The notes under the pieces were generated by a model. It did not search any database. It saw only the letters and a list, made by a program, of their open reading frames with translations, and was not told where the DNA came from. From Desmodesmus armatus (lineage: Eukaryota > Chlorophyta > Chlorophyceae > Sphaeropleales > Scenedesmaceae), in the NCBI GenBank assembly GCA_007449985.2, contig VIIQ02000145.1, forward strand, positions 62,001 to 126,000: a DNA stretch of 64,000 bases, in the 5' to 3' direction. Below, piece after piece: positions 1 through 46,564 of the stretch (its first letter is position 1; the number at the start of each line of letters is the position of its first letter). A program made the translations under genes and the position numbers.

Positions 1-290
1 ATTTATCGACACTGGTGATGTTCAGACCTTCCATCAACCTTCCCTGCGCTTCGAAGGTTTGAGTGGGCCGAGACGGAGACGGTCGACGCTGCGAGCAACC
101 GCACTAGGTTGCACACGAACCACGTCGGTACACAAAAAAGAGACGAAGCTGTGTTGTAGGATGACGTCCAGAGCTCAACAGCAAGCGCACGTCTCTCCTT
201 GCGGATGTAACCAGCGGCTTCGCAGCAGCGCCGATAGCGCTTGGTTCGCATGCAGCCCAGCATCGGGCCACTTGATTTGCGGATGATTGC
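1..290. other. Unassigned left edge
   Basis: No gene is supported here. Short overlapping ORFs on both strands have no recognisable domain. The stretch adjoins the 5' side of the reverse transcriptase remnant and may be the rest of that element. Confidence 0.4.
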
Positions 291-3732: not shown

Positions 3733-6700
3733 CTAGCCCATCGCCAACTTTGCCCAGGCCTTGGCATCTCGCACACGCCTCCGTTTGACACCCGCCACCA
3801 TGCCAAGCGCCTGCGGCATCAGATTGTAGGTGAACAGCAACACAGGCGCAAGATGTTAGTCACAGTCGTCACTCCAACATGTCTCCTATGCCATGCTGTA
3901 TTGCAACATTGTTTCTGCATCAACCAACACCTTGGGCCAGCCAGCCAGTGGCAATGCAAGCTTGCTGCTGCTCCACCTCAGGCTGATGTTCCACCTCACC
4001 AAGGCGTCCCAGCAGCCGGAGCAGTTCAATACCTGAAGGGAGTCTTTCAGTGTGCGGACACGCGTACTCCAGCTGGCTGAGCGTTGCTCCAGGTGTGAGA
4101 TTGTCTGCTCAAGATCCTGGGGCAGCTGTGTGCCAAACGGTGCGTGTGCCTGCACCAAAATACAAACACAGAAGACCAATTGACATCCATAATGTATGTC
4201 ACGGAAGTGATGGAATGGTATCCATACTGTATGTCACGGAAGTGATGGAATGGTAGGCTATGTGCCCACAAAATTGAAAGGCCAGATGCATTCCTGGCAA
4301 CTTGGCCAGCACTGATACAAAACAAACCCCCGACTGCTGTACTGCTCTGACTGTACTGCACTGGCACTCAAATGACAGCGGCTGTCATTTGTGGTGGCGA
4401 GTGACAGGCTGGTGCAGCCCCTGCACAGGGCTTGCACTGCAGAATGCAGATGTGACCCAGCAACCTCGCAACCACCACAACCCACCTGAGCACAGGCGTG
4501 GCTGCTCTTCTCAAGCAGGGCGAATGCGCTGCCCACTGCCTCCTCATCTTGTTTCATATCAATCCCCACCAGGCCTGCCTGCAGCTGTGCACACACATCC
4601 CGCTGCATGGGCAGCCACAACGTCCAGTAGGGTGTGCGGCCAGCTGGGAGGTGGAGGGCCAGGGCCTCTGTGAGGGTGGCCAGGCTTGCCAACTGAAGGA
4701 TGGGCCAGAACCCTGTGATGCGCCCCTGCTGGTCAATCCAGAGCTTGGTCTGAAGGAAGTCTACCAGCAGGATGCGTGCTGGCTGCAGCAGGGAGGTTGC
4801 GCCCTGGCTTCGAAGCATCTGGGCAGGCACAGACAGGACAGCAAGCAGGCAGACACAGCAGCCACTGCTGAACGGCACCCAAGTCAACGGCGATACAAAC
4901 ATTGCTGACATCAGCTGATGCAGCAGCAGCAGCAAATTGATACATGTAAAACCATCCTGTGCTGGAGCCGTAGAAGCCATGCATGCAAGGCGTTGGTTGG
5001 AAGCACACAGCTGACCTGTATGTGTACACTATCCGATATCGGATGCCATCGTTGAGTCAAGCGTCTTGCAAAAGAGTTACATGTCCTATGACACTATGCA
5101 CCACCTTGGACCAACATACCTGTTCATACATGTTGGCCAGTGCTGCCATGTTGACTCCATCTTGGCCTGGGTGCTTGCACATCAGCTCCCAACTGACTGC
5201 AAGGGTTGTCTCCTGCAGAATGTATGGCAAGAAAAGCTTTGGGCTCAGCGGGTGTGCATCAGCTACAGTAGTGCAGCCACCTCAATCACCTGACTTACAT
5301 CCACCATCATGCATGCCAGGCGCTGAGAGCAACTCAGACCTTTACCCATGGAGCCAGCACATGGGATGAATGTACAGCATGATGTATGTCATAATGTACA
5401 GGATGATGTACAGCATGCAGTCTGAAACATCGCACAGCGAGCAGGCTGGTACCAGCATGTTCCGCATTCAAAGCAGATAGCTGGGGTACATGCAGCACTA
5501 AGCAGCCAGCAAGCGTAGAACCTGCAACAACCCCTTGTCCGGTCGTCACGCTGCTAGCTTACCATGTGGGCATGTGCTTGTGCGGACTGCTCTGGGGGCA
5601 CACCAGCAGTCAGCAGTGCAGACATGGCGCCCAGGAGGCGCATTGCTGTGGACACATCATCTGGCTGCAGCTCAGGGGGGCTGTCCTGCAGGAACTGTGC
5701 TGCAGCATCAGCACTGCTGTGGGTCTGAGCACCTGCTGCAGCCACAGGCCTACTGCAAAGCCGCAACAGGGACTCTGAGGCAGCCGTGGATGCGTCTTCC
5801 CTGCAGAAGGTACGCCACATGGCAGGAAACAATGCCAGCACTGTGGGTGGTTGAGGTCAGGCAATATGCTCCACACACCTGCTAGATCCGACAGAGGGCG
5901 CATGCCAGTAGAACAGCACAGCTCCCAAAGCTGCCAGCTGCCTAGGCTGCATGACAAATGGTCAGCTGATGTTCCAGCAACAAGCGGTATCATACACATA
6001 TCCTGCAACTGCTGCAGCACCACGCTCACCAGTGCAGCTTCTTGTTGCTGTCCACCACATCCAGCAGCACCTCCAGCACCTTGTCATGAACCACTGGGCC
6101 AAGAGGGAGGGCCAGTGCACCAATCAAGCTGTATGTCCAAGCTGGCGCCCAGTCAAAAGCTGGTGCAGCGCCCTTCAAGCCTGTGCAGGCCAGGCGCATG
6201 CACTCCAGGCCGCGCAGGTACACAGACTGCAGGCAGCAGGGAGCAGGTGACACAACCTCGATCTTAGCACACCTCGATTCGAAAGCATGGTGGCTCAGCA
6301 CATACTGTTAAGATGACACATGTGCATATCGTACCAGCACCTGCAGGAACTGCAGGTACTGCCGCAGGTGCGGAAACGTGCAAGGGAAATCGGCAGCATG
6401 CATGCGCCACAACACACTCTGCTACATCAGCAGGCATGCCAAGCCAGGCGCAGGACAAAGTCCTTGCGTGCTGGCCCTTGCATAGGCCAGGCCAATTTAG
6501 GGTGACGTGCAGGCAGGTGGCCTGCGAATTGCAGCAGCTGCTGGATGTGCAGCGCAAAAGAAGTAAACATCGTTGAGGTGGCATGTACCAACCCACCTCA
6601 TTCACTGCATTGGTCCCAACTGCGTTGTCTGAGGGGTTGATGGGGAAATGCGCTGTCAAGAAACCCTTGACAAAGGCATATGCTGAGCGAGTCAGGCGCT

Positions 6701-23242: not shown

Positions 23243-25129
23243 CTAGTGCTGCACGGCATGCAGCTTAGCAAGCAGGTACTGCTGCTGCTGCCCTGCGCTG
23301 CGCAGCACCTCCCACTCCCAGTGTGGTATGGCGATAACTGCATACCCGCGTGCTGCCAGTGCTCTGTTCCTGGCCTGCGTTGTGCCCGCCAAGGTGCGCC
23401 CAGGCTGCGCAAAGTGCTGGGGGCCGTCTACTTCGATTGCCACCCTGACCCCTGAAGCTGTCACAGCGACAATGTCCACCAGACATGCCTTGTCGGCTGT
23501 GGGCTGCTCTGACTGCGGCTGCTGCTGCCAGGTGTTAGGCGGCAGCTGCAGCACTGCAGCACACACCGACTGCTGAAGGCGGGACGACTGCAACTTGGCT
23601 GTTGCAACCATTGACTGCTCCCAGCTGGCCCCACACTGCTCTAGCTGCTGCTGGGTCAGCACACTTGACAGGCCCTGACCAGGTGCGGGCAGCTGACTGT
23701 CCAGCAGCCACAAGTGCACTTGGTGCAACTGATAAACACCCTCAGCACCAGCAGCGCTGAACACCTGGCTGACAGCAGCTGCAAGCTGCAGCACATGCGA
23801 CACATACTGCTGCATGTCCAGTACTGCTGCTGCCCAGCACAGGTTGCACAGCTCCTGTGAATTCAAGCTGCCTGCACCCTCACCCTGCAACAGCTTGACT
23901 GCCAGCTGCAGCAGTGCCCCAGGCAGCAGCTGGCCCCTGTACCCCAGCTGACCACACGCCCAGGCCATGTTGGCCAGGTGCTGTGCCTGAGCTGTGGTCA
24001 GAAGCTGCTGCAGCTGCTGAGCGTCCTGCTGCAAGGGCTGCAGCAGCTGCAGTGGCAGATACTGCATTTTTCCGCAAGCCCACAGCAAGTTTGACACATC
24101 TTGGGCGTTCATACGAGGAAGCAGCTTGCCCATGGCAGCGCAAATCAGGTGCAGCTGCTGTGGCGGCACCTGCTGGCCCATGGTGGCCACAGCCCACAGG
24201 CTGTTGGACAGCTCCTGTGGTTTGGCTGCTAGAAGCACAGCTACCAATCTTCCCAACAGCAGGTGCAGCTGCTGTGGCGGCACCTGCTGCCCCATGGTGG
24301 CCACGGCCCACAGGGTGTTGGACACCTCCTGTGGCTTGAGGGCTGGCAGCACAGCTACCAATCTTCCCAACAGCAGGTGCAGCTGCGGTGACGGCACCTG
24401 CTGCCCCATGGTCGCCACAGCCCACAGGGTGTTGGACACTGCCTGTGGCGCAGCATCCACAAGCACTGCTTCAAGCCTTGCCAACAGCTGCTGCAGCTCG
24501 GCTGCCGTCAGCTGCATCTGCAAGGTCGCAGCAGCCCACAGCACATTGGACAGTGCCTGTGGGTCAGCCTGCTGCAGTATTCTGGCCTGCAGGAACAGCG
24601 GCAGCAGCAGCTTGGCTGTATCTAGACAGCACAGCTTGCTGCTGGCGTGAATGATGTTGGCGAGCTGCCTTGCCACACACTGCTGCTGTAGCCGCACCGC
24701 TAGCTGATGCAGCACTGACAGCAGCTGCTGCACCACTGCTGGCTGCTGCTGCAGAGGCACACCCTGTCTGCACAGCCTGGCAGCATGGGTATATGCTGCA
24801 CTGAGGTTCACGTGTGTGAAGTCAGCTGCGTGCTGTTGCACCAGTAGCAGCAGCTGTTCTGGGCTGCGGGTAGCCTTAATGGCCTCTGTGCGCTCCTTAG
24901 ATGCTGCTAGCCAAGCAGCGTGACCCTCGTACCGCTTGCTGTCACTGCCGCTGCTGGGCTTGCCGCCCCTGCCACCACCCCTGCCACCCCGTCCCTCTCT
25001 GCCACCCCCTCTGCTGCTCCTGCCCCCTCTGCCCCCCCTGCCTCCCCTGCCTGCTGCCCTGCTTCCTGCAACCTGCCCTGATGAGCTCACAGGTGAGGTG
25101 CTATGAAATGCACTGCCATCACTGTCTGG

Positions 25130-25175
<46 letters not shown>

Positions 25176-25333
25176 GCCTGGGCTATGATGACCGCTGCCC
25201 TACTGCTAGTGCTGGTGGTAGTGTGACTGAGTGCTGGTGGGGCGTTGAGTAAAGGTACGATGCCGATGTGATTGGACGCAGGTGTGTTTATGCGCGGACA
25301 AGGACCCCAGGCTGCCCTCCTGCAGGCTAGCAT
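23243..25333 (-). CDS. OPR protein with C-terminal RAP domain (organelle RNA factor)
   Basis: An intronless ORF of 696 codons, starting at 25333. An in-frame ATG 32 codons upstream exists, but the duplicated 5' end at 8484 begins at the equivalent of this Met (MLAC..WGPCPR). Order: Ser/Thr-rich N-terminus that could be an organelle targeting peptide, poly-Ser encoded by a CTG tract, a Gly/Arg-rich RGG-like stretch, then helical repeats of 37-38 residues with the OPR-type core SNTLWAVATMG, and a RAP domain at the end (VDIVAVTASGVRVAIEVDGP, then RNRALAARGYAVIAIPHWEW). In Chlamydomonas such proteins bind single organelle transcripts and control their stability, splicing or translation. Three consecutive repeats are almost identical in DNA, a sign of recent internal amplification. 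The target RNA and the organelle cannot be told. Confidence 0.9.
25131..25173. repeat. CTG/CAG tract coding poly-Ser
   Basis: About 14 CTG units, read as AGC codons in the OPR-RAP gene on the minus strand. They form the poly-Ser run after the presumed targeting peptide. Confidence 0.9.
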
Positions 25334-25699
25334 GGTTGACAGTAGATCAGGACCCAACAGCAGTGAGGGACGTGGAACCTTGAAAGTAGGATCGTGAGAA
25401 GTGCGCGTGTTGCAAGTGACTTCAAGCAAAAGTGCGTTGTCAATTTTATCATAAAACTCTTATGTGGATGGTCACTTCCATGGCGGTTGTCGATCCGTTC
25501 ATGGCTGGAACTACATTGTCTGCATTGTCCCGACGAGTCCACGTTATCTTGAATCGTAACGTATCTGAATAATCTCAAGGTCACAGATCGTGCAAGCACA
25601 CCTCACCGTCATCGTCATAATCCTTGAAGCTACTACCTACTGTCTTGACATACCTTGGCCATCAAGCCGTGACTGGCACTCACTCAGTTTTATCTGGTC
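25334..25699 (-). promoter_or_regulatory. 5' flank of the OPR-RAP gene
   Basis: Intergenic space between two divergent genes. The part at about 25440-25520 resembles 8600-8684 upstream of the duplicated OPR 5' end, with the shared wording GTTGTCGAT and GTTCATGGCT. It may hold the promoter or 5' UTR. Confidence 0.35.
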
Positions 25700-32319: not shown

Positions 32320-32481
32320 CTGTGCATGGGGCAGCAATCAGGCAAAAAAGCTCGTATCAGATGCAAACCGAGATGTGACTCATGTAGACATTTGACACCA
32401 CTTGGGCCAAGGGTGAGGGTGGAATTAGCATAGGAGAATCAATCCAGACCTACACACGGCCAGTTGTCTTGGCAGTGTGGT

Positions 32482-33974
32482 GCGAACGGACGGGGGCGGG
32501 GCTACGCGGGGTGCACAGCCACACAGCGAGTGGCAGGCAGGCAGGGCAGTGGCAGAGAGGGGGAGGGGTGCTATGCTGCTGTCAGCAGCACTAGCAGTTG
32601 GCTGTGTGTTAGGCTGGCACAGGAGTTCACTCCCTTACCCTGGTCCTTTACAGGGGCTTGATGTGTTTTGCTTTGTTTGTTTTGAGTGTATGTGTGTGTA
32701 CGATTACTGTGTGACAGGTGGTGCGAGTCAGGTGACTTTGTGACAGGCGGTACGTGTACAGCCAGCAGGACTTTCAGGCAGTGGCAAGGCAAGGATCGAG
32801 ATCAGAAGGTCAAAGCTTGATAGCTTTGTGGAATCAAAAGCTTTGGGGCGCGGGTTACAAGGGGGCAACTCTCTTGGGAGTTACTGGTTGAGCTCTGCTG
32901 TTGGAGGCAGGTATGCTGTTTTGGCAGGGAGGGCCCCCACCTTATATAGCCGGTGGCAGCTTCCACCCAGCTACCTGGGCAGCTTCATCCAGCTACCAAC
33001 TCAACAAAGCTGCTCAAATGTTGCAGCAAACAACCGCATGAAAGCACTTATGCCTCATGCGCGGCCTCAGCGGCCTGGAGGGGGCGAGGCCAGCAAATGT
33101 GCCCTCATTTCTCCAATTTGCGCACCTGAGAAAACAACATAAAAGCAACCGCTCCATCATAACAGCTTAGTCAGGGACACCACGGGTCCCTATCATGTCC
33201 CATCAGAAAAGATCACCTCCTGGCCGCGAAAAACCCCTCGAAACATGTTCCAAAGCACGTGTGACACCAAGGGTGGCCAACGCTCTTCCTGCAAGGCCAT
33301 CGTTTCTGCAAACAGGGCACGATGAACACAGCTTTTTGCTCGTATGGCACCGCTGACACTCCCTGGAAGCTGTTGTGCTTGGAACGAACATAAAACACAA
33401 GTGCAAGGTGCTTCGCACCTGCACGTGGGCTGCCAGCTTCGTCGCTGCTGCATACCCACAACAAGCACTGTACATGGCTGTGTGCTGCTTCTCAAACAGT
33501 CTGACCATAGCTCAAGAACTGCCCAGCTGTGCGTAGTGACCAGCTGTAAGACTCACAACAGCCCAGAGAAGGGAGCAGCAGCAAGAGGGCGCGGTGGAGT
33601 GTGAACCACTTTCCCAGCAGAGGGGATGAACAGCAGGACTCCCAACCTGCTCGCGCATAGCCCCAGAGGCCACATGGCAGCATGCAGATGGCAACACAAG
33701 GGCTTGCATGTGTCCAGGTGTGCGAGGCAGCAGCTGCAAGGTACTCAAAGGGAGGGAGACGGGGGTGATGGGGTGGGCAGGGTGAAGGGTCACCCCAGTG
33801 CACAGCAGTAGACCACCGCCTGAGGCACAGTGGTGTTGCTGGCAGCCCGCAACAAAGCAAGCCAAGGACAACTAATCAAAAGCAACCAAAGGACGACATC
33901 AAAGTCTGCTTGGCCGTCACGTATTGTACAGCTGCTCACTCACAGGTGGGCCCAGCACCCGTGCTGGTGCCACA
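32482..33974 (-). repeat. 3' LTR of the retrotransposon
   Basis: Intact copy of the LTR. 32482-33615 matches 45160-46292, and 33634-33974 matches 52047-52387 without visible difference. On the element strand it starts TGTGGCACC and ends GTTCGC. A TATATA at 32944-32949 could be the promoter core. ORFs inside it are the same in both LTRs but show no domain, so they are not called genes. An 18-nt piece (33616-33633) has no exact counterpart in the other LTR. Confidence 0.85.
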
Positions 33975-35085
33975 GCTGTGGTAGCTGCCACCAACAACAA
34001 GGCCTGTCCCTAGGCCTGATGGCTTAGCCAGTAGTCAAGTCAAGAGTAGCAAGCCGCTGCCTCACAACGTGTGAGTGTCAGTCAACAGCGTGCGTAAGCC
34101 ACTAAGCAGTGTGTATCACAACGATCAACGGGGCAGCTGCCCTGGGTTTGATTTACAACGGCATACAGCCGTGACTGTACAAAAACAGATCTGGGTGTGC
34201 AGGGTTGACCTGGTGGTGACGGCTAAGGTACTGGGAGCAGGTGGCGGTAAGAGTACCTACCGCACCTCTCTCTGGTGGACTAAATAGCACAAACAAACAG
34301 GCCGCGACGTGACTGCTCAACCCTGCCGGCAGCAGCGCACAGTAGGCCTGAGACAACATGACCATTGGGCGCAGCAGCAATGGCTGGCCCCCTACCGTCA
34401 CTCACAGGGCCAGGCAAGTTGGCGGTAGCCGTAATTGCCTGTCACAGGTCATGTGTTGTAGCCAGACTAGTCAAGTCCTGCTGGCGGCGGCGCACAGCAG
34501 GCACCAACAACCAGCACCCTTATTGCAGGCGCCTTATAGTACTCATAGAAAGGACCCAACCCAGGATCACGACAGAAGGAGCCAACGTTAGCAGTGGCTG
34601 CACTGGGCCCTCAACCCAGAATCAAACCATAAGGAACCAAACCCTAGCAGTAGCTGCACTGGGCCTCAACACAGAATCAAACCAGAAAGAACTGAACCCT
34701 AGCAGTGGCTGCACTGGGCCCCAACACAGAATCAACCCAGAAGGAACCAAACCCTGGCCGCAGCGCTGACTGTCAGCCGCGGCTGTGACAGCAGATGCAC
34801 TGGGCCCTCAACCCAGAATCAAACCAGAAGGAATCAAACCATAGCAGTAGGTGCACAGGGCCCCAACACAGAATCAACCAGAAGGGACCAAACCCTAGCA
34901 GCAGCGCTGACTGTCAGCCGCAGCTATGACAGCAGTAGTGCTGGCCCTGACACGCAGCCCAGGGGCTCCAAGGGGCACACTTTCATAAAAGCAAGGTTAT
35001 ATCAGACATGACAAAGCCACGGACCGAAGCTGGGGCACTCTGTCCCCAACCCGCTCCCCTCAACAGGAGGCTGGCCCCCAGCCCT
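33975..35085 (-). other. Retrotransposon 3' untranslated region
   Basis: Between the extra ORF and the 3' LTR. It holds no supported gene and an imperfect tandem array at about 34560-34950. No clear polypurine tract is seen next to the LTR. Confidence 0.5.
34560..34950. repeat. Imperfect tandem array inside the retrotransposon
   Basis: Five to six units of about 50-60 bp share ACACAGAATCAAACCAGAA and GCACTGGGCC. Two of them carry an added segment containing GCGCTGACTGTCAGCCGC. Confidence 0.8.
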
Positions 35086-36193
35086 TTACTTCTTGCCGAA
35101 GGCGGGGTCTTCAATGGCGGTGTAGACGCCAACACCAGCGGTCCTGCCATCCCTGTTGCTGGTCGCATACACGCCAACATTGGCGGCAGCATGGGTTTGG
35201 TACGACCATAAGTAGGGTGGCTTGTCAGCGCGGTCTGCAGACGTGGCCCCGCTGTTGGACCTCGTGGCGGCTGAGTTGGGTGGGGTGCGGCCGCCACGGG
35301 TGGGCATGATGGGCCGAGGCTGAGGCCGGAACCCACCGAAGGTTTCTGCGGTCACGTTGCCACCGGACAGGTAGAGGTTGCCCCCGTTGGGGCCCAGGTT
35401 GGCAGCAGGGGCGTCCAGCAGGGTGGGTGTCTCCCTGTAGCCGCCTGGGTTGTCGACGAAGATCTCGTTCCCGCCGCCTGTGAGCATTGACAAGGGGGTG
35501 GTGTTGGGTCCAGCCTCCAGCAGTCGCCAGCTGTGACAAGGCGGCTGTTGATAAGTATAGTGGCGCGGTGGTCGAGGCAGTTGTCTGACAGGCTGATCAT
35601 CACGCACTCTAGGTAGAGAGCAGCTGTGGCACAGCTGACGCAGGCTGTGGCACACTGCTGTTGTCCTTGAGTGTGGCCGCAGCCGTAGTTGGGGCACTAA
35701 CGTGGTGCCTGTCGGCAGTAACGCTCCCCAACTCACCAAGGTTGGCAGCAGGGGGGTCCAGCAGGGTGGGTGTCTCCCTGTAGCCGCCTGGGTTGTCGAC
35801 GAAGATCTCGTTCCTGCCGCCGTTATCCCTCTCCGGGATGGTGCCCATGACTCCCTTGCCGTAGCGTGGGGTGGGGTGGTAGCCTGGGGGGGCAGGGTAG
35901 CTGCTGCTCTGGCCCTGTGCAGGCAGGTACCTGCTGCTGCTGGGGCCGGATCCTGTTGCATTTGCGTAGCCAAAGGGAGGGGCGTTCTGCACGCTTGAGG
36001 GCATGATGGCATTCCCTGCAGGGGGCACCATCACCCCCCAGGGCTTTGGGGGCAGCGATGTGGCCAGCAGGGGGGTCTGCATAGGGTTGTACAGGACGAT
36101 GGGAGAGGATGGTGCCACGTTTTCCTCGTCATCAGTGAATGTGCCCAGGTCTGGGAAATCGCCATACAGGCCGGAGCTCAGGAAATCTCCCAT
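35086..36193 (-). CDS. Extra ORF downstream of integrase, function unknown
   Basis: Starts at MGDFLSSGLYGDF (ATG at 36193) and runs in one frame to about 35609. It resumes in another frame to the stop at 35086 (last residues TAIEDPAFGKK). The first half is acidic then Pro/Ser/Gln-rich. A module reading NEIFVDNPGGYRETPTLLD occurs twice, at about 35820-35757 and 35480-35414, nearly identical in DNA. The second copy is followed by GGNLYLSGGNVTAETFGGF, a Gly/Asn-rich pattern reminiscent of beta-structured repeats. No transmembrane helix or envelope-like feature is visible. The Chlamydomonas element REM1 also has a third ORF, but that one carries PHD and chromo domains in reverse orientation; this one does not. 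I do not recognise the protein. Confidence 0.5.
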
Positions 36194-36587
36194 GCTGCTT
36201 GGGGTGCAAGGAGTCTTGATAGAAGGCTGTTTTTGTTTGTTTCTTGGTGCGATGGGACGGCGTGTAGGGGTATGGGTGAGCCAGTGGACCTCTGTAGCGA
36301 GTGTTGAAGCGTAGTAGCGCGGATGCGCAAATAACACACTCCTAAACTTCAACTCATATTTTTGACAGGCGCTTGGCTGGTCTTCGAGCCTTCAAACGTG
36401 TTGTGCGGTGGTCAGCGCTGGATACGGACAGGGTGGCAGGCTCCTGTTGAAAAACAACCCTCTTCATGTAGGTTGGGGCTGAAACTTTTGGTATGGTTTT
36501 TGAGTTGTTTACGAATGTAGTCTGTGGGGCCGACGTCACCACTGGTCTCAGTCGCACACTTGACCGTATTGCTCCTAGGTACTTCGA

Positions 36588-38321
36588 TCACTGTGTCACG
36601 TAGGGAGCCAGCCTTGTGGTTGCCACTGGCCAGGTCTTCCCATCTCCTTCCTTCACGATTGCCCTGGTTTTGCCGTCCAGGTATCTGACTAGCTCGTAGG
36701 GACCTTCCACTGACTTTCCCAGGTGAAGCTTGCTGCGCGCAGCACACTTCAGCAGGACCAGAGAGCCCTCGGGCATGAGAGCAGCTGGGTCCTGTAGGTG
36801 ATGTCGTTTAAGGAAGTCCCGTTTTTGTTTGCCTTGGGCACGCTGAGTGTTGCTGCGCAGCTTGGCCATGACTCCTGCTTGCTTGTCCGCCAACTGCTGT
36901 AGGTGCCGTGTGGTGCCTTCATCCACCTCACCTTCCTCCAATTCATTGTCACCTGGGCTGGCGGCTGCAGCGGCGGCAGCAGCAGCATTGGCCGAAGCTG
37001 GAGTGGTTGCAGGGGGAAAGACTGCTTGGGTGAGCAGGTTGGCTTCTGCTGCCAGGCTGGATGTCTGATTGGGGGGTAAAACATCAGCCAAGTGGCGGCG
37101 GTCTGCGGGGAGTACAGGGTGGCGCCCTGTCAGCACATAGTGGGGGGAGAATCCTGTTGTGGAGTGCTTGGCGCTGCGTAGTCCCAAGAGTACCATGGGC
37201 AGCTTTTCATCCCATGTGAGGGGGCTTTGGCCCACAGCTTTTTGCAGGCCGTGGAGTGTGGCCTTCACCACAGCTTCGGCCTGCCCATTGCTCTGGGGCG
37301 AGTAGGCTGCAGACTGGTTGTGGGCCACACGCAGGGAGTGTAGGAGGTCTTTAAAATCCTTTTGGAACTCTTTGCCTTGATCTGTGCAGCAGAGAGTGGG
37401 AACTCCATGACGCGCCACTATGTCTTCCAGGAAGAAGGACGCCATTGCGGCTGACGTGAGTTGAGGGACAGCACGGGCCTCTACCCACTTGCTGCAGGCG
37501 TCCACTGCCACCAGGATGAACCGGTTGTTGCGACTGGTGGGAGGGTAGGGTCCCATGGTATCCATAGCCACACGGTCCCAGATTGTGCTCTGGGGTAGGG
37601 GACGTAGCTCAGGTTGCTGTTTAAACAGCACCTTGGTGCGCAGGCAGTCTGTGCACTGCTGTATGCGTTGCTTTGCATGTGCAAAGACCCCCTTCCAGTA
37701 GTAGCGTGCCAGGACGGCACTGCACAGCTTGCTGATCCCGAGGTGGCCTAGGTCTACATGCATCTGATCGATCAATGAGTCCCGCTGCTCTGGGCGCGGG
37801 ACTTCGCGGTCTTGGGGGTACCGGGGTGTAGCCTTTTTGTACAGCCGTTGGTGTTTGTGGTCCCAGTAGAAGGCATCTGCGCGCTTGTTGATGCGCTTCA
37901 TAGACCTTTTCAGGTCTGCAGAGTTGTCTGGTAGTTGCTCCACATCAATGTGGCCTTTCTGCAGGAGGGCGAGGGTTGCCCCATCATCCCAAATCTCATG
38001 CAGAACCTGAGTGGCTTCCTCAGACTCATTGTCCTCTTCCTCTTCTGCTTCTGCCGCTGTCTGCCACAGGTCAGGTAGCATGTCCTGGCTGGGCACAGCT
38101 GGTTCAGTGGAGCAGTCGGATGCCGGGTCACTGTGGAAGCTTGTGCTTGGCGTGGGCACAGGGCTGGGCAGCGCGCGCGCCCTGCCTTTGGTGGCCTTGC
38201 CCAGGATTGTGGTCTCAGGTGGGTGTGTCGGCCGGTGAGACTGAGGGGAACAGATGCAGCGGGTGGTGAGTTGAGTCCCTGGCTGCTGCCGCTGTATGAG
38301 CAGCAGCTGGGGCAGAGCCAC
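36588..38321 (-). CDS. Retrotransposon integrase
   Basis: The 577-codon frame carries, after an acidic and Pro-rich linker, the integrase zinc-binding module (HVDLGHLG with CTDCLRTK, an HHCC pattern), then the catalytic core with D in VAMDTMGPYPP, D in CCTDQGKEF and E in NGQAEAVVKATL, with D-E spacing usual for retroviral-type integrases. A C-terminal beta-rich segment (GSLVLLKCAARSKLHLGK, then GPYELVRYLDGKTRAIV) follows. A poly-Ala run interrupts the linker after the core. No chromodomain is obvious. It inserts the cDNA copy into the genome. The upstream PHD frame overlaps it at 37910-38321, joined by a frame change near 38230. Confidence 0.9.
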   Translation of the reverse strand: MALPQLLLIQRQQPGTQLTTRCICSPQSHRPTHPPETTILGKATKGRARALPSPVPTPSTSFHSDPASDCSTEPAVPSQDMLPDLWQTAAEAEEEEDNESEEATQVLHEIWDDGATLALLQKGHIDVEQLPDNSADLKRSMKRINKRADAFYWDHKHQRLYKKATPRYPQDREVPRPEQRDSLIDQMHVDLGHLGISKLCSAVLARYYWKGVFAHAKQRIQQCTDCLRTKVLFKQQPELRPLPQSTIWDRVAMDTMGPYPPTSRNNRFILVAVDACSKWVEARAVPQLTSAAMASFFLEDIVARHGVPTLCCTDQGKEFQKDFKDLLHSLRVAHNQSAAYSPQSNGQAEAVVKATLHGLQKAVGQSPLTWDEKLPMVLLGLRSAKHSTTGFSPHYVLTGRHPVLPADRRHLADVLPPNQTSSLAAEANLLTQAVFPPATTPASANAAAAAAAAASPGDNELEEGEVDEGTTRHLQQLADKQAGVMAKLRSNTQRAQGKQKRDFLKRHHLQDPAALMPEGSLVLLKCAARSKLHLGKSVEGPYELVRYLDGKTRAIVKEGDGKTWPVATTRLAPYVTQ

Positions 38322-38974
38322 GTCTCGGTGGGAGGCAACTCATCCATCCCCATGCAGTAGGAGTGGTACGCCCCATCACACTTGTCGCACAACAGCATAT
38401 TGTCCCAATCATGGGGGCTGCCGCACACGAGGCAGCAGACCTCTGAGGGGACTTCATGCTGGCCGGTTACAGCTTGGCGCTGTTGTTGCACCCATGAATG
38501 TATCTGTGTCACAGCTTTTTTGGCGCTTTTGCGCTGAGGGCGCTGCTCTGTGTCTTGTAACACGTTAATCTCATCCATTGGTGGGTTGCATCGCTGCAGC
38601 CCTTCATTGTTGTGAGGGATGCTTCCCACCAGGCGTAGCCTGCCTTGGCCTTCTGAGGGTGTGTATTCTTCAGCCGAAGGAGGTACAGCAGAGTGCACCA
38701 GGGTATTAGGCAGGTGGGAGTGCAGGCTGATGCCGCATGGCAGCATGGGTCGCAGCCGCACCAGACGCACCCAACCATCAAGGGTGTAGCCTTCATTCCT
38801 GAAGGACTCCAGCCAGGGAAATTGGGCGGCATCATCTTCCCAATAGTTGCAGGGCCCTTCCAGCCGTGCGCGTTCTCTCAAGGCGGCATACTTGTTGGTG
38901 TCTACGTACACCACCTCAGTGCCGTCAGGGCTTACGCACACCACCTTGATCGCAGCTCCTGCCTTTTTAGGCAC
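37910..38974 (-). CDS. PHD-finger segment of the retrotransposon Pol
   Basis: The frame opens with MPKKAGAAIKVVCVSPDG. After about 180 residues it contains a PHD finger: CCLVCGSPHDWDNMLLCDKC, then GAYHSYCMGMDELPP, then WLCPSCC, giving the C4HC3 zinc ligands. PHD fingers bind histone H3 tails, so the likely role is guiding integration to certain chromatin. Sense continues into the integrase frame after a shift near 38230; the rest of this frame is a shadow. In Chlamydomonas REM1 a PHD finger lies in a separate reverse-oriented ORF (from memory). Here it is on the same strand, between RNase H/kinase and integrase. Confidence 0.75.
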   Translation of the reverse strand: MPKKAGAAIKVVCVSPDGTEVVYVDTNKYAALRERARLEGPCNYWEDDAAQFPWLESFRNEGYTLDGWVRLVRLRPMLPCGISLHSHLPNTLVHSAVPPSAEEYTPSEGQGRLRLVGSIPHNNEGLQRCNPPMDEINVLQDTEQRPQRKSAKKAVTQIHSWVQQQRQAVTGQHEVPSEVCCLVCGSPHDWDNMLLCDKCDGAYHSYCMGMDELPPTETWLCPSCCSYSGSSQGLNSPPAASVPLSLTGRHTHLRPQSWARPPKAGRARCPALCPRQAQASTVTRHPTAPLNQLCPARTCYLTCGRQRQKQKRKRTMSLRKPLRFCMRFGMMGQPSPSCRKATLMWSNYQTTLQT

Positions 38975-39493
38975 TGCTGCAATCTGGATGTTGGCGTTTG
39001 GCCCGTTGAGAGCCAGGGTCCCATCTCAGCGTACAGCTGTAATGCCCTGAAGTTGCTAATGCGGTCACTCGCATCGGGTGTAGAACGGTACCTTCGCTGA
39101 TACTCGGCGCAGAACTGGGATGAGTAGCAGAATGTGCCGGTCCATTCTGAAACATCACCAGCACTTCATAGTCCATGTCATACAGTAGGTTGATAGGAGT
39201 GGACTCAAAGGCGTAAGGCTCGTAAGTAGGCACCACAGCATCTGGTTGCGCGTCCCCAAGGGGGTGGCCACAACCTCAGGCTGTGGGGGTGCCTCTTCAA
39301 TGGTCAGCAGCTGCTCGGGGAACAATCGTAGCAGGTAAGGATCGCATGTGGTCAGTTGTTGGTCGGGAAGCAAGCGTGCCAAGGCAGGGAAACTTTGCAC
39401 CTTGAAAGGGGGTGCGTCGACGCGCCGGGGCTGTGGGAAGTGGCCTGTGGGGTAGTTGCTGGAACATCCCCTGACAGGAGTTCCACCGCGCAT
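38967..39493 (-). CDS. Pol linker between kinase domain and PHD segment
   Basis: Two successive frames (39493-39155 and 39236-38967) give a plausible continuous protein stretch (PFKVQSFPALARLLPDQQL, then YEPYAFESTPINLLYDMDYE). It continues in yet another frame with YQRRYRSTPDASDRISNF. No domain is recognised. The repeated frame changes in about 500 bp show either decay or sequence error. Confidence 0.4.
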
Positions 39494-40760
39494 TTGACGG
39501 CCGCGGCCACTGCTTCCTTGGGCTGAGTGGCGTCTATGGTGATGACTGGGCCTGGAAACGCCGTAATCTCCTGCTCGTACTGTTGATGCAGGCGCTTGAC
39601 GTAGTCCAAGTGGATCATGTTTTCCCCAGCTCGCTGGCGCCTTTGGATGCGCTGCAGACAGGCTTCAGGATCAGCCCTGAGGTAAATGATGGCGGTAGGT
39701 AGGGCATTGTCTAAATTGTAGTACATGTGGTGGGCTGTTTGTGTCACCACTTGCGCCAGGCTGGCGGGGAGTGCCTGTACGGGCAGAAAAACTGACAGGG
39801 AGCTCCAGGTTGACCGCTCTGTCAGCACTGTTGGTGCATTCAAAGGCGACGGTACCCGCAGCGCGTAAGCATTGAGGACAGCAATCTGCAGGAGGGCTGC
39901 AATGCTGTGCCTCTCCATGCTTTTTGGGGTGCAGCATAGAGGGGCCCAAGCAGGTGGTGCCATTCGTGCACTGGTTCCGGGATGATGGTGAGATCGCCCC
40001 AGCCTGCATTGGTTGCCTGCTGCTCCTGTAACGCCTCCATCACTGTGGACTTGCCACATCCGATGTTACCTTCAAGGCAGATCCTGACTGCTGTCCTCAT
40101 TGCCCTTTCGACGCTGTCACTGTACACAGGGTGTGACGTGGCAGAGCCGAGGTCGGCCGTGTCGCCTTCGGGGGCAGCGGCCATCTGGGGCGTGGCGGGA
40201 GGTATTGCAGAGGCCTCTTCTGCCGTCAGTATCTCCTCAGGTGAGCCCTGTGGTGCGGCGAATGCCGCGTCCGCCGGCTGGTCAGGGTCCTCGTAGCTGG
40301 CGTAGCGTGTGAGGGCATCTGGGGCGCTGTGCAGGGTGCCCTTGCGGTACTTGATCTCAAAGGGCAGGAACTCCTGCAGCCTCAGGCTCCAACGGGCCAG
40401 CTTGCCCTGCAGTTGTGGTGAGGTCATGAGCCAGCGCAGCGCTATGCAGTCTGTGTAGACGCAGAAAGGCGAGCCCAAGAGGAAGTCGGCCCAGTGGTCG
40501 CAAACGGCATTTACCACGGCGTAGCACTCCAGCTGGGAAATAGGCCAGTTGCGCTGTGTAGGTGTGAGTTTTTTGCTATGGTATGCAACGACGTGCTCAC
40601 GCCCTGTCTCGTCCTGTTGTGCCAGGATGGCGCCCACGGCTTGGCTGGAGGCATCCGTGTGTACAATGAAGGGGCGATTGAGGTCAGGCCGCCGCAGAAT
40701 AGGGTAAGTGACAAGCCTTTCCTTCAGGGTGTTGAAGGCCAGTTGCTGCTCTGGCCCCAA
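39352..40760 (-). CDS. RNase H fused to a deoxynucleoside kinase domain
   Basis: The frame from 40760 opens with RNase H: D in FIVHTDASSQAVGA, E in QLECYAVV, D in VYTDCIALRWL, D in SAPDALTRYA. After a linker of about 70 residues the same open frame enters a kinase: P-loop LEGNIGCGKSTVMEAL (about 40032-40080), then IPEPVHEWHHLLG (EPV..W). A one-base break in a C4A5 run near 39930 moves the sense to frame 40059-39352, with TERSTWSSLSVF (ERS motif), IIYLRADPEACLQRIQRRQR (LID arginines) and YVKRLHQQYEQ. This is the full motif order of dCK/dGK/TK2-type deoxynucleoside kinases in about 200 residues. These enzymes phosphorylate deoxynucleosides with ATP. Inferred role: raising local dNTP for reverse transcription. 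Confidence 0.85.
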
Positions 40761-42321
40761 CTGAACCTCACTGTTTTTGCCAGCAGCCGGGTTAATGGCT
40801 CTGCGATTTTAGCATAGTCCTGCACAAAACGGCGGTAGTAGCCTGTGAGGCCGAGGAAGGATGCCACCGCCTTGGTGTTTTGGGGGTCCCTGCGGTGGGC
40901 GATAGCTTCCACCAGGCGGGGGTCTGGGCTTAGGCCGTTCTCATCCACCACAAACCCCAAGAATGTGACGTGCGCCTTGAAGAACTGGCACTTTACGGGG
41001 TTTAGCTTCAGGTTGGCCTCCCTCAGCCTGCTGAACACCTGGTTTAGGTGCTGCTTGTGGGCCTCGAAATCTTGAGAGAATGTAATTGTGTCATCAAAGA
41101 AAACAAAGGCGATTTTCCCAATAAGGCCTTCCAGCACCTTCATCATGATGCGCATGAAGGTGGCAGGGCCTCCTGTGACACCAAACGGCATCCGCAGATA
41201 CTCATACAGCTGGTTCCAGGGCACCACAAAGGCGCTGCGCTGGACCGCACTTGAGGTGGTGGCGTCATTGACGTCACTTGGGCACCCTCAAGCTTGATCT
41301 GCAGGTAGCCACTGAACAGATCCAGCACAGACCAGTACTTGGCTGGCCCAATATTATGTAGTATGTCGTCGATCCTGGGGATAGGGAATGCGTCCTTGCG
41401 TGTCACAGCATTCAGAGCCCGATAGTCCACTACTTCACGGGTCTCATCCCCCTTTTTGGGGACCAGGTGCATGGGTGAGCTCCATGCTGACTCAGAGGGC
41501 CGTATGATTTTGTGCTCCAGTAGCTTGTTGACATGCTCTTTCAGTTGCTCATACTTCTTGTATGGCATTCGGTAGTATGATTTTTTGATGGGTTCGGCAT
41601 CGCCTGTGTCAATGGAGTGACAGCCCACATTGCACACACCCAACTCGCTGGGGTGGAAGCAGAAGCAATCGCGGTTGTCATTCAGCAGCTGTAAGGCTTC
41701 CTGGTACTGCTCTTGGGTCAGGTGGGAGCTATCAATCAAGCTGGCCAGGGTGATGTCCCTGTTGTCAGCTAAGGCATCATCATCAGGGAAAGCATCATCC
41801 CTGTCAGGGGGGCACAAGCCTGGGGTGGGGCTTGGGCACTCCTGGTGCACAGATAATTGGGCCAGGCTCACTCGAGTTGGCCTAGTGAGAGGGGTTGGGA
41901 AGGGCAGGTAGCCTTCCACTTCGTCGCTCTCGGGGTAATCTTCATTGTCTGAGTCTGACGCCAGGTCGGGCAGGTCAGTGGGGTAATCGCTCTCAGACCC
42001 CAGATGACTGGGTGGTTCCCAGGTAGTGGTGGGACTTGTATCTGTGGGGCTGTAACTGGGGTGCTCAGGTGGGAGCTCCCGGAAGAAGTTGATCTGTTCC
42101 ATGAACCGCTCAAACTGTAGTGCCGGCATGGGTAGTAGCTCTTCTGGGTCGGACAGCATCCTTGCCTCCTGACGCAACTCTGCAATTTCGCGCTGCAGGA
42201 TGGCCAGGAGTGCGGGTGGATGCGTCTCAAGGGAGAAGCCGAGCCAGCAGGTGCCGCTGTGGCAGCAGCTGGGGCAGCTGAGGGTGCGGCGTGGTCGGTA
42301 GTGGCCAAGCTTGGGGAGCAA
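40724..42321 (-). CDS. Retrotransposon reverse transcriptase
   Basis: Frame 42321-41143 carries the RT fingers and palm (HKIIRPSESAWSSPMHLVPK, VVDYRALNAVTRKDAFPIPR, then VLDLFSGYLQIKLE with the first catalytic Asp). The sense shifts near 41250 to frame 41227-40724: LYEYLRMPFGVTGGPATFMR, the catalytic FFDDTITFS (the usual YxDD replaced by FFDD), then FLGFVVDENGLSPDP and FLGLTGYYRRFVQDYAKI of the connection. Another shift next to a T5 run near 40775 leads into RNase H. Upstream of the palm the frame is an acidic, Pro-rich linker. The domain content is typical Ty3/gypsy. The two frame breaks make this copy non-coding as written. Confidence 0.9.
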
Positions 42322-43872
42322 TTGTGCCCACTGTTGGTGCAGGCGTCTGCACGCTGGACCTGTCAGGTACGTCTGTGCTCTCAGGGTTTAGGGCACAAGA
42401 CAGCAGTGCTGGCAGGTTTGCCACTGTGAATGTTGCCAGCTGGGCCTCTGCATCGTTGAGACGCTCGGCCATGCTGTCCTGCATGCTCCGGGTGTCTTCG
42501 ATATCCAGGGTGAGCTCGAAGCGCATGAGGTCCAGCTCAACCATCAGGTGTGCCGCCTCAGGGTCAAGGTGGCTGTAGCCTTTGCTGTACCAGTTGATCA
42601 GCTCACTGCGCTCTGCAGCACTGAGGGGGCCCATAGGTTGTGGGCTTGTGGTGGCCGCCAGGGGTCCAGCCTTGTTGTCACACACCACCTGAGAGGGTGA
42701 GGGGTGTGTTGTTGCTGCCACTGTCCCCAGGGTGTCCGTGTCAGAGTCCTCATCCAGGTTGGGGTCCCACATCCCTGAGAGGCTCTCACTGTCCTCCAAG
42801 CTCTCGTCGTCTGGAGCCTGGGCAGTGGCGGCAGTGCAGCTGGCTTGGGACACAGGTGGGGAAGTGGTTACATCCCACATGCCGTAGGCTGTGTCAGTCG
42901 GCCCAGCAGGGGAGGCGGGAGCAGCAGAAGGTGTTGCTGCCTCCAGGGTGTAGCAGGCTGAGTCCTCAGGGGCTGTCAAGCAGATGTCCACCTCCTGAGC
43001 CAGAGAAGGGTCCACCTGAATGACCATCTTGCCCCTGTTGTAGTCGATCACTGCGCGTGCCCTGTGCAGAACGTCGTTACCTATGAGCATGTCATAGTTG
43101 AGGGCGGTGGTGACTGTGGGGCTGATAAGGGTGCTGAAGTCTCCCAAGGACAGCACCAGGTTGGGCACTCTGCCCTTGCCTGCAGTGATGCGGCCGTCCG
43201 CATTCAGATAATTGATGGTGGTGGGGTCGATCAGAGAGTCCAGGTTGAGCCTGCGCAGGCAGTCCAGTGTGATGGCACTGGTTGTGGCACCTGTGTCCAC
43301 CACATTGTCAACCTCCTTGCCGTTCACCTCTGCTGTCACCTTGCAGGTTGTTATCTTGGGCAGGGACCGTACTGGCTGGCGGGCGTACAGCCGCTGGGTG
43401 TTGTGGTATGCAGACCGAAGAGGTGAGACCGAGAGGTGCAGCGCCTGTGCTGGGGGTTGGGGGTGACGCACCATCCCTCGCAGCATAGTAGTGACACGAC
43501 GGGCCATGTCATGCCCACGGTTGATCAGGGTCTGCTCTCCAGCCAGGTGACCTGCCAGGGTGGTCAGCACTGCCTGGGGGGGTAGGGTAGCTTCTTGAAT
43601 GCCGTCGAACTTCATGCTGCGGCAGATATCTGCAGCCATGCGCTTGGCCTTCTCGTCGACCAGTTGGGCAGCATCTGGCAGCCCGCTGGGGCGCATGGGT
43701 GGCCTTGCGCCAGCAGCAGCAGCAGCAGCAGGGGCACCCTGGTTGGCAGGGGGGTAGGGTGCTGCTGTGTAGGCTTGGCGCTGACGCGGGATGCGCCTGG
43801 CGCTCTCTTTAGCTGCCTCGGCCCTTTCCTGCAGAGGGGAAGGAACTGGGAGCCTGGCAGCGCCGGGGGGAG
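42227..43872 (-). CDS. Retrotransposon aspartic protease region
   Basis: The frame ending at 42227 contains the retropepsin-like motif VVDTGATTSAITLDCL (catalytic DTGA) and, about 60-70 residues later, YDMLIGNDVLHRARAVIDY (the ILG-like second motif and hydrophobic strand). It is followed by a long acidic, Pro/Thr-rich linker. Upstream in the same frame (43872-43697) lies an Ala/Pro-rich region that probably joins Gag. Cleaves the polyprotein. A frame change separates it from both Gag and RT. Confidence 0.8.
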
Positions 43873-44931
43873 TCAGTGCTGTGCGCTTAGCGGGGTACGG
43901 GTGTACTGTGGCTCAGCGTCAGCAGACCTCTTTACAAAGAGGGAGGTGAGTAGCTCGTGATCCAAATCATCCTCATCTTCTGAGGGGGGCAGGTCTGGGG
44001 TCTCTGTGCTGTCCACAGGAGACATGAAATTGATCTGTGTTGAACCTGGTTGCTGCTCTCTTTCCCTTTTCAGGGCAAAGCGCAGGGTGCGGATCTCCCT
44101 GTCCTTATCTTGCATCTGGTGGTGCACATTGAGCTCGAGCCGCTTGAACTTCTGGTTCAGCTCGTCCATAGCAGCCTCAGCTGGTGCAGCAGCAGGTGCA
44201 GGTGAGGGGATGTTTGCTTTGAAGGGCGGCTTATAGTCGGCTCTGGGTGCCACAGCATGGCCACGGTTAGTGTTTTCCCTCAGGGGTGGTGCCCTGTGAG
44301 GAGGGCCGCTGCGCCCCTGCTCTCTTAGCTTGAAGTCAGGGCGTCTGGGGGGGCCTGTGAAAGTGCGGGGGCGAGAGAAGGACCGGGGCTCTGGGTTGGG
44401 GTCACCAGGGTCCGTGTTCTCATCAGCACCGTGCAGCAGACCCAGCCAGAAGTTGCAGAAGGTGACAATCCCTTCGATGCTGTGCAGACGTTGGCGGGCC
44501 ACCTCAAGCTTGAGATCTGGTTGCAGCCTCTGTATGAAGTTGTAAACCAAGGCCTCGTCCTCAGCGCGACCTGCCTTGTCTGCATTTTGCAGGTACCTGT
44601 CAGCAAAATCTTTGACAGACTCGTGGGGGCGTTGCCAGCAGCACTCGAGGCGGGCAATGGCAGACTCTTTGGTCTCACCATAGCGAGACTCGAGTTGCTG
44701 TTGGAAGGCGGGCCAGGTGTTGAACTGGCGGGCCTGAGCCCAGCTCCAGGCAGGACCTGTCAGCCGTACCCGTGCAATCTTGAGACAGAGGTCGTCTGTC
44801 CAGTTATACAGGTCAGCAATGGCTTGGATGGAGTTCAGCCATGCGTCTGGGTCCTTCCTGCCGTCGTAGGGAGCGATGGCATTCAGGGCTTGCAGAGGCG
44901 GCATAGCCGGAGCGTGATTGTGGCCCTCCAT
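43873..44931 (-). CDS. Retrotransposon Gag
   Basis: 352 codons from ATG at 44931. The N-terminal half fits the retrotransposon Gag (capsid-like) domain: YDGRKDPDAWLNSIQAIADL, then RLTGPAWSWAQA, FQQQLESRYGE and VKDFADRYLQNADKAG. A basic, Arg/Pro-rich region follows, then a predicted coiled coil (MDELNQKFKRLELNVHHQM) and an acidic tail (PPSEDEDDLDHE). There is no CCHC zinc knuckle. RNA packaging may use the basic region. It follows the leader after the primer-binding site. Confidence 0.85.
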   Translation of the reverse strand: MEGHNHAPAMPPLQALNAIAPYDGRKDPDAWLNSIQAIADLYNWTDDLCLKIARVRLTGPAWSWAQARQFNTWPAFQQQLESRYGETKESAIARLECCWQRPHESVKDFADRYLQNADKAGRAEDEALVYNFIQRLQPDLKLEVARQRLHSIEGIVTFCNFWLGLLHGADENTDPGDPNPEPRSFSRPRTFTGPPRRPDFKLREQGRSGPPHRAPPLRENTNRGHAVAPRADYKPPFKANIPSPAPAAAPAEAAMDELNQKFKRLELNVHHQMQDKDREIRTLRFALKREREQQPGSTQINFMSPVDSTETPDLPPSEDEDDLDHELLTSLFVKRSADAEPQYTRTPLSAQH

Positions 44932-45159
44932 TTAATGGAGAGTTGTCAGAGTAGGTGGGGTAGTAGGCAGCAGGGTAGCAGTAGGCGGAGTAGTGGGCAG
45001 CAGAGTAGCAGTAGGCGGAGTAGCAGTAGGCAGAGTAGTAGGCAGTGGAAGCGTAGTGTACGGGTTGCTCAGCCCAAGGCACAGGCGGAGCTTGTCTTGG
45101 CTCTCTTGTCTTTCTTGTCTTTCTTGTCTTTCTTGTCTCGTCCTGTCTCTCCGCTACCA
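44932..45159 (-). other. Retrotransposon leader with short repeats
   Basis: Between the 5' LTR and gag. It contains a string of GTAGGCRGAGTAG-like repeats (44950-45045) and a TTTCTTGTC repeat (45107-45137). No gene. Confidence 0.6.
45142..45159 (-). promoter_or_regulatory. Primer-binding site
   Basis: Read on the element strand, TGGTAGCGGAGAGACAGG follows directly after the 5' LTR end (GTTCGC). The TGG start and TGGTAGC.GAG pattern would pair with the 3' end of an initiator-Met-like tRNA (..CUACCA). The match to the algal tRNA is not verified. Confidence 0.6.
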
Positions 45160-46292
45160 GCGAACGGACGGGGGCGGGGCTACGCGGGGTGCACAGCCAC
45201 ACAGCGAGTGGCAGGCAGGCAGGGCAGTGGCAGAGAGGGGGAGGGGTGCTATGCTGCTGTCAGCAGCACTAGCAGTTGGCTGTGTGTTAGGCTGGCACAG
45301 GAGTTCACTCCCTTACCCTGGTCCTTTACAGGGGCTTGATGTGTTTTGCTTTGTTTGTTTTGAGTGTATGTGTGTGTACGATTACTGTGTGACAGGTGGT
45401 GCGAGTCAGGTGACTTTGTGACAGGCGGTACGTGTACAGCCAGCAGGACTTTCAGGCAGTGGCAAGGCAAGGATCGAGATCAGAAGGTCAAAGCTTGATA
45501 GCTTTGTGGAATCAAAAGCTTTGGGGCGCGGGTTACAAGGGGGCAACTCTCTTGGGAGTTACTGGTTGAGCTCTGCTGTTGGAGGCAGGTATGCTGTTTT
45601 GGCAGGGAGGGCCCCCACCTTATATAGCCGGTGGCAGCTTCCACCCAGCTACCTGGGCAGCTTCATCCAGCTACCAACTCAACAAAGCTGCTCAAATGTT
45701 GCAGCAAACAACCGCATGAAAGCACTTATGCCTCATGCGCGGCCTCAGCGGCCTGGAGGGGCGGGGCCAGCAAATGTGCCCTCATTTCTCCAATTTGCGC
45801 ACCTGAGAAAACAACATAAAAGCAACCGCTCCATCATAACAGCTTAGTCAGGGACACCACGGGTCCCTATCATGTCCCATCAGAAAAGATCACCTCCTGG
45901 CCGCGAAAAACCCCTCGAAACATGTTCCAAAGCACGTGTGACACCAAGGGTGGCCAACGCTCTTCCTGCAAGGCCATCGTTTCTGCAAACAGGGCACGAT
46001 GAACACAGCTTTTTGCTCGTATGGCACCGCTGACACTCCCTGGAAGCTGTTGTGCTTGGAACGAACATAAAACACAAGTGCAAGGTGCTTCGCACCTGCA
46101 CGTGGGCTGCCAGCTTCGTCGCTGCTGCATACCCACAACAAGCACTGTACATGGCTGTGTGCTGCTTCTCAAACAGTCTGACCATAGCTCAAGAACTGCC
46201 CAGCTGTGCGTAGTGACCAGCTGTAAGACTCACAACAGCCCAGAGAAGGGAGCAGCAGCAAGAGGGCGCGGTGGAGTGTGAACCACTTTCCC
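45160..46292 (-). repeat. 5' LTR, first part (interrupted)
   Basis: Matches 32482-33615 except for one indel and one substitution near 45758-45765. The LTR is cut here by a DNA transposon and resumes at 52047. Confidence 0.9.
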
Positions 46293-46564
46293 CGCAGAGG
46301 GGGTCAGGCAGAGGGGGTCAGTCAGTGGGTATGGGGCAATTCAGGGTCTGAATTGCCAGCAGTCATACGACGCCTGCGTCAGCTGCGCGTGCTTTGTTTG
46401 TGTTTGTTTGATGATACAAAGCACGTTTGGACTCCCGTGCGGCCTGTATTGCGACAGCACTCGTCCCAACCAGCATCAGTTAACTGCCCTGAATTAACTT
46501 CGTGCTCACGTCGCCGGTATGCCTGTGAAGTGATGTAGTGACATCTCGTGTACCATAAAAAAGA

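Follow-up and report, generated by a model that had tools for sequence, protein, structure and literature searches.

The stretch of DNA analysed here (the window, 64,000 nucleotides, positions 62,001 to 126,000 of contig VIIQ02000145.1 of the green alga Desmodesmus armatus) carries a minus-strand long terminal repeat (LTR) retrotransposon of the Ty3/gypsy type (window 32482-46302), which reads from right to left and contains a deoxynucleoside kinase (dNK, PF01712) domain at about 39475-40085, between RNase H on one side and a PHD finger and integrase on the other. The match to the dNK domain is far beyond chance. The Ty3/gypsy class was assigned from the domain order and from Pfam (RVT_1, RT_RNaseH, gag-asp_proteas). 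The order protease (PR), reverse transcriptase (RT), RNase H and integrase, with the integrase last, was found by Pfam in the window and in a group of related copies in the same genome (subfamily A, described below), and paired LTRs enclose the coding region both in the window (99.74% identical) and in a copy on contig C616 (1.5 kb LTRs, 99.67%).

Kinase domain and structure of the window copy

RNase H and the first part of the dNK domain are encoded in a single frame (window 39840-40808, minus strand; PF01712 27.7 bits, cutoff 27), and the remainder of the domain, with the last helix, the LID arginines and the ERS motif, follows in a different frame (39352-40065, minus strand; PF01712 70 bits). 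A tblastn search with a subfamily A copy returned dNK pieces at 40085-39930 and 39888-39475, which places the frame change between 39930 and 39888. A sequence-only reading of this DNA had described the RNase H motifs, the P-loop and EPV..W in one frame and the ERS, LID and last-helix motifs in another, within a Ty3/gypsy-type Pol of the order RNase H-dNK-integrase. Pfam and tblastn agree with both descriptions, and the order recurs in many copies and families; it is fuller than first noted, with a conserved region and a PHD finger also lying between dNK and integrase.

Further frame changes occur in the window copy within RT (tblastn pieces 41763-41284 and 41251-40754), between RT and RNase H, after dNK and between the PHD finger and integrase. 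Since the LTRs are nearly identical and the frame changes fall in several places, this copy appears young but decayed, and indels of the assembly may be the source of the frame changes. The coordinates of the features are collected in Table 1.

Table 1. Features of the retrotransposon in the window (window coordinates; E-values and bit scores as reported by Pfam searches unless stated otherwise)
Feature	Position	Strand	Evidence or remark
3' LTR	32482..33625	-	1,144 bases; 99.74% identity to 45160-46302 over 1144 columns (2 mismatches, 1 gap column)
5' LTR	45160..46302	-	1,143 bases
Candidate target-site duplication GGCAG	32471..32475, partner 46307-46311	.	read from sequence; tentative, five bases only
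Candidate primer binding site TGGTAGCGGAGAGACAGG	45142..45159	-	directly after 5' LTR; begins TGG
gag open reading frame (ORF), 352 amino acids	43873..44931	-	PF03732 (Retrotrans_gag) 6.3e-7
Protease frame	42227..43912	-	PF13975 7.1e-14
Reverse transcriptase, two frames here	40754..41763	-	PF00078 2e-20; other piece 1.9e-4, 21.6 bits, under cutoff 29.6
RNase H	40368..40757	-	PF17917 2.7e-34, PF17919 3.2e-31
dNK N-terminal part (GNIGCGKST, EPVHEW), frame common with RNase H	39930..40085	-	PF01712 2.7e-6; tblastn
dNK C-terminal part (ERS, LID arginines, last helix), different frame	39475..39888	-	PF01712 3e-19; 62% amino acid identity to subfamily A
Conserved region between dNK and PHD finger	38450..39409	-	34% identity to subfamily A
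PHD finger	38303..38434	-	PF00628 2.4e-9
Integrase (H2C2 zinc binding and rve core)	37296..37793	-	PF17921 7.6e-12, PF00665 2.3e-10

The LTR of the window copy had no other match above 85% in the genome. About 160 bases of the LTR end (32482-32648, LTR positions 1-167) recur at ten other genome places with 72-74% identity, and these are perhaps the LTR ends of other families. The six bases at the outer end of the 3' LTR (window 32476-32481) read ACCACA in the window and GCCACA in the C616 copy (L017/L018) and in the copy on contig C100 (L030); they are missing from the junction of 5' LTR and primer site in the window and in C616, and the first four of them correspond to the sense 3' end of a tRNA fitting each primer site (TGGT or TGGC). 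This match may be due to chance, since only one base co-varies. Between integrase and the 3' LTR lie ORF3-like frames (35089-36193, minus strand) in which a unit of some 30 residues is repeated and for which neither a Pfam match nor a counterpart in the examined subfamily A and C loci or in C548 was found.

Elsewhere in the window, a 738-amino-acid ORF (23246-25459, minus strand) has a RAP domain (PF08373 5.7e-13) and repeats that we take to resemble algal octotricopeptide repeats. Two overlapping frames at 276-1539 (plus strand) have no Pfam support and, judged by motif, resemble a Penelope-type reverse transcriptase.

Copies in the genome and relatives in protein databases

The search of the 115.8 Mb assembly (831 contigs) with PF01712 yielded 18 matches: one in each of 13 element loci, two that are pieces of the window copy, and three that belong to a host gene on contig C561. 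Together with a further copy on C677, which runs to the contig end, the genome holds 15 element loci bearing dNK, in three subfamilies: A (11 loci of the profile search and C677), B (the window copy and C548, whose dNK parts are 72% identical over 188 codons) and C (C403). In 11 of the 14 loci of the profile search the match is free of internal stops and spans nearly all of the profile (1-182 or 1-185 of 203); the departures were a single TGA in C548, a match to profile positions 27-185 only in C633, and the split window copy. The best score was obtained for C403 (107.2 bits, cutoff 27), and the kinase-bearing open frame extends over 2,936 codons in C100, 2,760 in C72 and 2,338 in C112.

Subfamily A, as represented by C100, showed matches to protease, RT, RNase H, dNK, PHD and integrase along a single long frame, and its gag match was weak and in a separate frame (21.7 bits, cutoff 24.1). 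With the subfamily A LTR as query, 13 near-full-length matches were found at 99-100% identity and one at 97%, and the LTR pair of C616 differs by 4 mismatches in 1,500 columns. Chlorophyll a/b-binding protein matches, of which there are 49 in the assembly and which mark the genome as that of a photosynthetic eukaryote, occur twice on C100 at 51-53 kb and so place the element on this contig in the host genome. The C403 copy carries the protease in one frame, RT-RNase H-dNK in a second and PHD in a third by Pfam, and its integrase was located by alignment (218 of 250 residues); gag was not seen in this copy. Downstream of the integrase in C403 (L010) the same small ORFs occur twice (3706-4147 and 6214-6655, about 2.5 kb apart), and the contig also contains a 219-base repeat at 98.6% identity.

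The region between dNK and PHD is conserved in all three subfamilies (window 38450-39409; L030:644-1621; L010:1259-1963). The best Pfam match for its family assignment reached only E 0.12, and a PDB sequence search with its A and C relatives gave none below E 0.5 (best, fumarylacetoacetase at E 0.51).

Proteins related to the element kinase were retrieved from the jgi, lgn and ena sources. A search with the kinase part of a subfamily A polyprotein returned 17 proteins, 16 of which are retroelement polyproteins and one (P0016) a different multi-domain protein of 1,682 residues; a second search added polyprotein P0042, bringing the further polyproteins to 17. All of these have the order RT-RNase H-dNK, followed by PHD in 13 and by integrase in 11. 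The dNK domain alone as query gave 24 proteins, of which eight (P0018-P0025; 42-61% identity) are element-like kinases or fragments, with RT not seen on them, and 16 are more distant kinases. P0020 and P0021, named Scenedesmus sp. NREL 46B-, belong to the element kinase clade; their contigs measure 242 and 400 kb. Single-linkage clustering of the 19 elements with both RT-RNase H and dNK (A, C403, C548, P0001-P0015 and P0042), at 80% identity in RT-RNase H, gave 13 families, with a lowest pairwise dNK identity of 40% and 37 of 206 positions invariant.

Conservation and origin of the kinase

Residues of the active site were nearly always retained at 15 motif positions (P-loop, EPV, Y, Q, ERS and LID) across 24 element rows, the split window copy and P0042 being left out. 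As departures, P0018 has K in place of W and P0004 D in place of E, S and T exchange in the P-loop, and the truncated P0021 lacks the P-loop. Beyond the 15 positions, EQV replaces EPV in C403, GSIG replaces GNIG in P0015, and ERG replaces ERS in P0015 and P0020-P0022. An AlphaFold prediction gave the element kinase a dCK-like fold, and the 50 entries listed of 995 chains aligned in the fold comparison were dCK, dGK, Drosophila dNK and other deoxynucleoside kinases. The PF01712 matches over cutoff, the predicted fold and membership of the dCK/dGK/Drosophila dNK superfamily are all in line with the dCK/dGK-type kinase proposed by the sequence-only reading.

Purifying selection on the kinase part, which had been put forward as a further check, was supported by codon models. 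For A, the window copy, C548 and C403, an omega of 1 was rejected for dNK (2dlnL, twice the difference in log likelihood, 344; 196 codons) as well as for PR, RT and RNase H; three copies gave the same outcome for PHD, integrase and the post-dNK region, and the window copy and C548 alone gave a 2dlnL of 137 for dNK. The inference of selection is based on the likelihood ratio and on codon-position divergence, not on omega: third positions differ at 59-68% of dNK codons and second positions at 14-32%, synonymous sites are saturated, NG86 gave no dS for dNK, and YN00 provided estimates in a few comparisons only. The linker between RNase H and dNK (174 residues in A) aligns over 65 residues with the window copy at 43% identity and over 60 with C403 at 55%, with NG86 dN/dS of 0.55 and 0.43, respectively; in contrast, 189 of 201 and 195 of 201 dNK residues could be mapped in the two B copies.

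The element kinases form one clade (support 99.9/100), separate from the host dNK. The host gene on C561 is split by introns and lies outside this clade, and on these two grounds it was rejected as a direct recent donor. With regard to the kinase donor, most deep branches outside the element clade were weakly supported; relatives are also encoded at 32 viral loci, with 23-32% identity except in two short matches at 35% and 54%, and these loci are not informative about element polyproteins. A related element on contig C545 (L035, C545:868000-873500) has the layout RNase H-PHD-integrase with about 180 bases between the matched RNase H and PHD parts, and a dNK match was absent there, both between RNase H and PHD and in the genome-wide PF01712 search. 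This element, with 33% identity to A in RT and 40% in RNase H, likely reflects the architecture before insertion, and the comparison suggests that dNK, together with the conserved region or separately, entered between RNase H and PHD. It is also possible that dNK was instead lost in C545, the sole outgroup element examined. Further RT-RNase H relatives with 35-39% identity occur at places without a dNK match (among the best 50 of 236 candidates).

Proposed function and comparison with known systems

Deoxynucleoside kinases convert deoxynucleosides to deoxynucleoside monophosphates (dNMPs), which is often the limiting step of salvage. Taken together, the sequence comparisons make it probable that a Ty3/gypsy-type lineage gained a dNK and kept it under selection, and that this Pol-borne salvage kinase raises the supply of dNMPs. 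As far as the data show, the gain would have been a single one, with dNK inserted between RNase H and the PHD-integrase module in an algal lineage, probably a green one. Made as a domain of Pol along with RT, the kinase would probably be packaged in the particle and might be released by the element protease; it would then use ATP to convert deoxynucleosides to dNMPs, from which host kinases would go on to make the deoxynucleoside triphosphates (dNTPs). The substrate supply for reverse transcription would thereby be raised when ribonucleotide reductase is low, which may benefit the element in resting or starved cells. The chances appear evenly balanced for a broader version of this proposal, in which an old and widespread algal LTR lineage carries a working salvage kinase in its particle, the supply of precursors co-limits copying, and dNK and the conserved region arrived jointly, as one module beside the PHD-integrase unit. 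An attempt to derive the substrate range from binding-site residues was dropped, as two alignments differ in the region of the conserved Q.

Several observations weigh against the salvage proposal. The trees of dNK and RT-RNase H (18 elements) have 6 of 15 splits in common and their full topologies reject each other (approximately unbiased (AU) test, p 6e-6 and 2e-4), so the history of the elements is not purely vertical; the RT clade of A, C403 and P0009 was not rejected by the dNK data (AU p 0.46), and the conflict may stem from recombination between closely related elements or from database contigs that are chimeric. The dNK omega of 0.017 is unreliable as a number owing to the saturation. 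In the comparison of A with C403, identity is 81% for RNase H, 72% for RT, 57% for dNK and 53% for integrase; as dNK is less conserved than RT and RNase H, the constraint on it is real but not the strongest. A PHD or integrase match was not found in 4 of the 17 database polyproteins. The enzyme would yield monophosphates only, so that any benefit hinges on host kinases, and the host possesses a dNK of its own.

An active kinase with another main task, for instance a step like that of thymidylate kinase or of a different nucleoside or nucleotide kinase, seems unlikely. PF02223 (Thymidylate_kin; cutoff 27) does match as well, at 35.1 bits for the window piece, 29.1 and 30.9 for subfamily A and 30.1 for C403, and six polyproteins were named thymidylate kinase by JGI, alone or with a second name; however, the PF01712 scores of the window piece (70 bits, against 35) and of C403 (103, against 30) are much higher, and the entries listed in the fold comparison were without exception deoxynucleoside kinases. 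Alternatively, the domain might owe its retention to nucleotide binding and not to catalysis, sensing dNTPs or serving Pol structurally, which we regard as improbable. Deoxynucleoside kinases do show feedback binding of dNTPs, and the dUTPase-related gene of bovine immunodeficiency virus is reported to be critical though its product is without dUTPase activity (PMC4261571). Against a binding-only role stands the retention of nearly the whole active site (P-loop lysine, EPV glutamate, ER of ERS, LID arginines), not all of which binding alone would need. LTR elements capture host sequences, and the split window copy and the internal stop in C548 might recall a one-off, functionless host-gene fragment, which the sequence-only reading had itself raised for the case of no profile hit, or of no other copies together with no sign of selection; with PF01712 matches found, 15 loci in three subfamilies, 17 further polyproteins, a single kinase clade apart from the host gene and selection on the domain, this was rejected as extremely improbable.

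The supply of dNTPs is a choke point of reverse transcription that is exploited by hosts. Retroelements are known to answer it with dUTPase, an enzyme that cleans the pool; a salvage kinase as part of Pol, in 13 families, would instead make new precursors, and with it dNTP limitation in the retrotransposon life cycle becomes directly testable. The kinase may also serve as a marker for a large algal element lineage, and 'thymidylate kinase' labels on database proteins may denote retrotransposon Pol. An earlier report of dNK in a retrotransposon was not found among the papers listed in the literature searched, which did not cover subscription papers, outside preprints and Repbase reports, where one may exist.

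The elements share with Ty3/gypsy LTR retrotransposons gag, protease, RT, RNase H and integrase in order between LTRs, and differ from them by dNK, the conserved region and the PHD finger between RNase H and integrase. As for the dCK/dGK/Drosophila dNK superfamily, the 17 non-element database kinases in the tree are short and kinase-sized with the single exception of P0016, whereas the element kinase is a polyprotein domain that forms a separate clade and in most rows has as many as seven additional residues ahead of the conserved Q. dUTPases are reported to be carried by LTR retrotransposons of bdelloid rotifers and basidiomycetes, in rotifers between PR and RT, and LTR elements do therefore acquire enzymes of nucleotide metabolism (PMC5408684). 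The likeness lies in such an enzyme inside an LTR element; both the enzyme and its position in Pol differ, as dUTPase removes dUTP and dNK makes dNMPs. Orchids, too, have a Gypsy lineage in which a further enzyme domain (2-ODD m6A demethylase) is fixed, but there it is RNA demethylase-like and takes the form of an additional ORF (PMC9289625).
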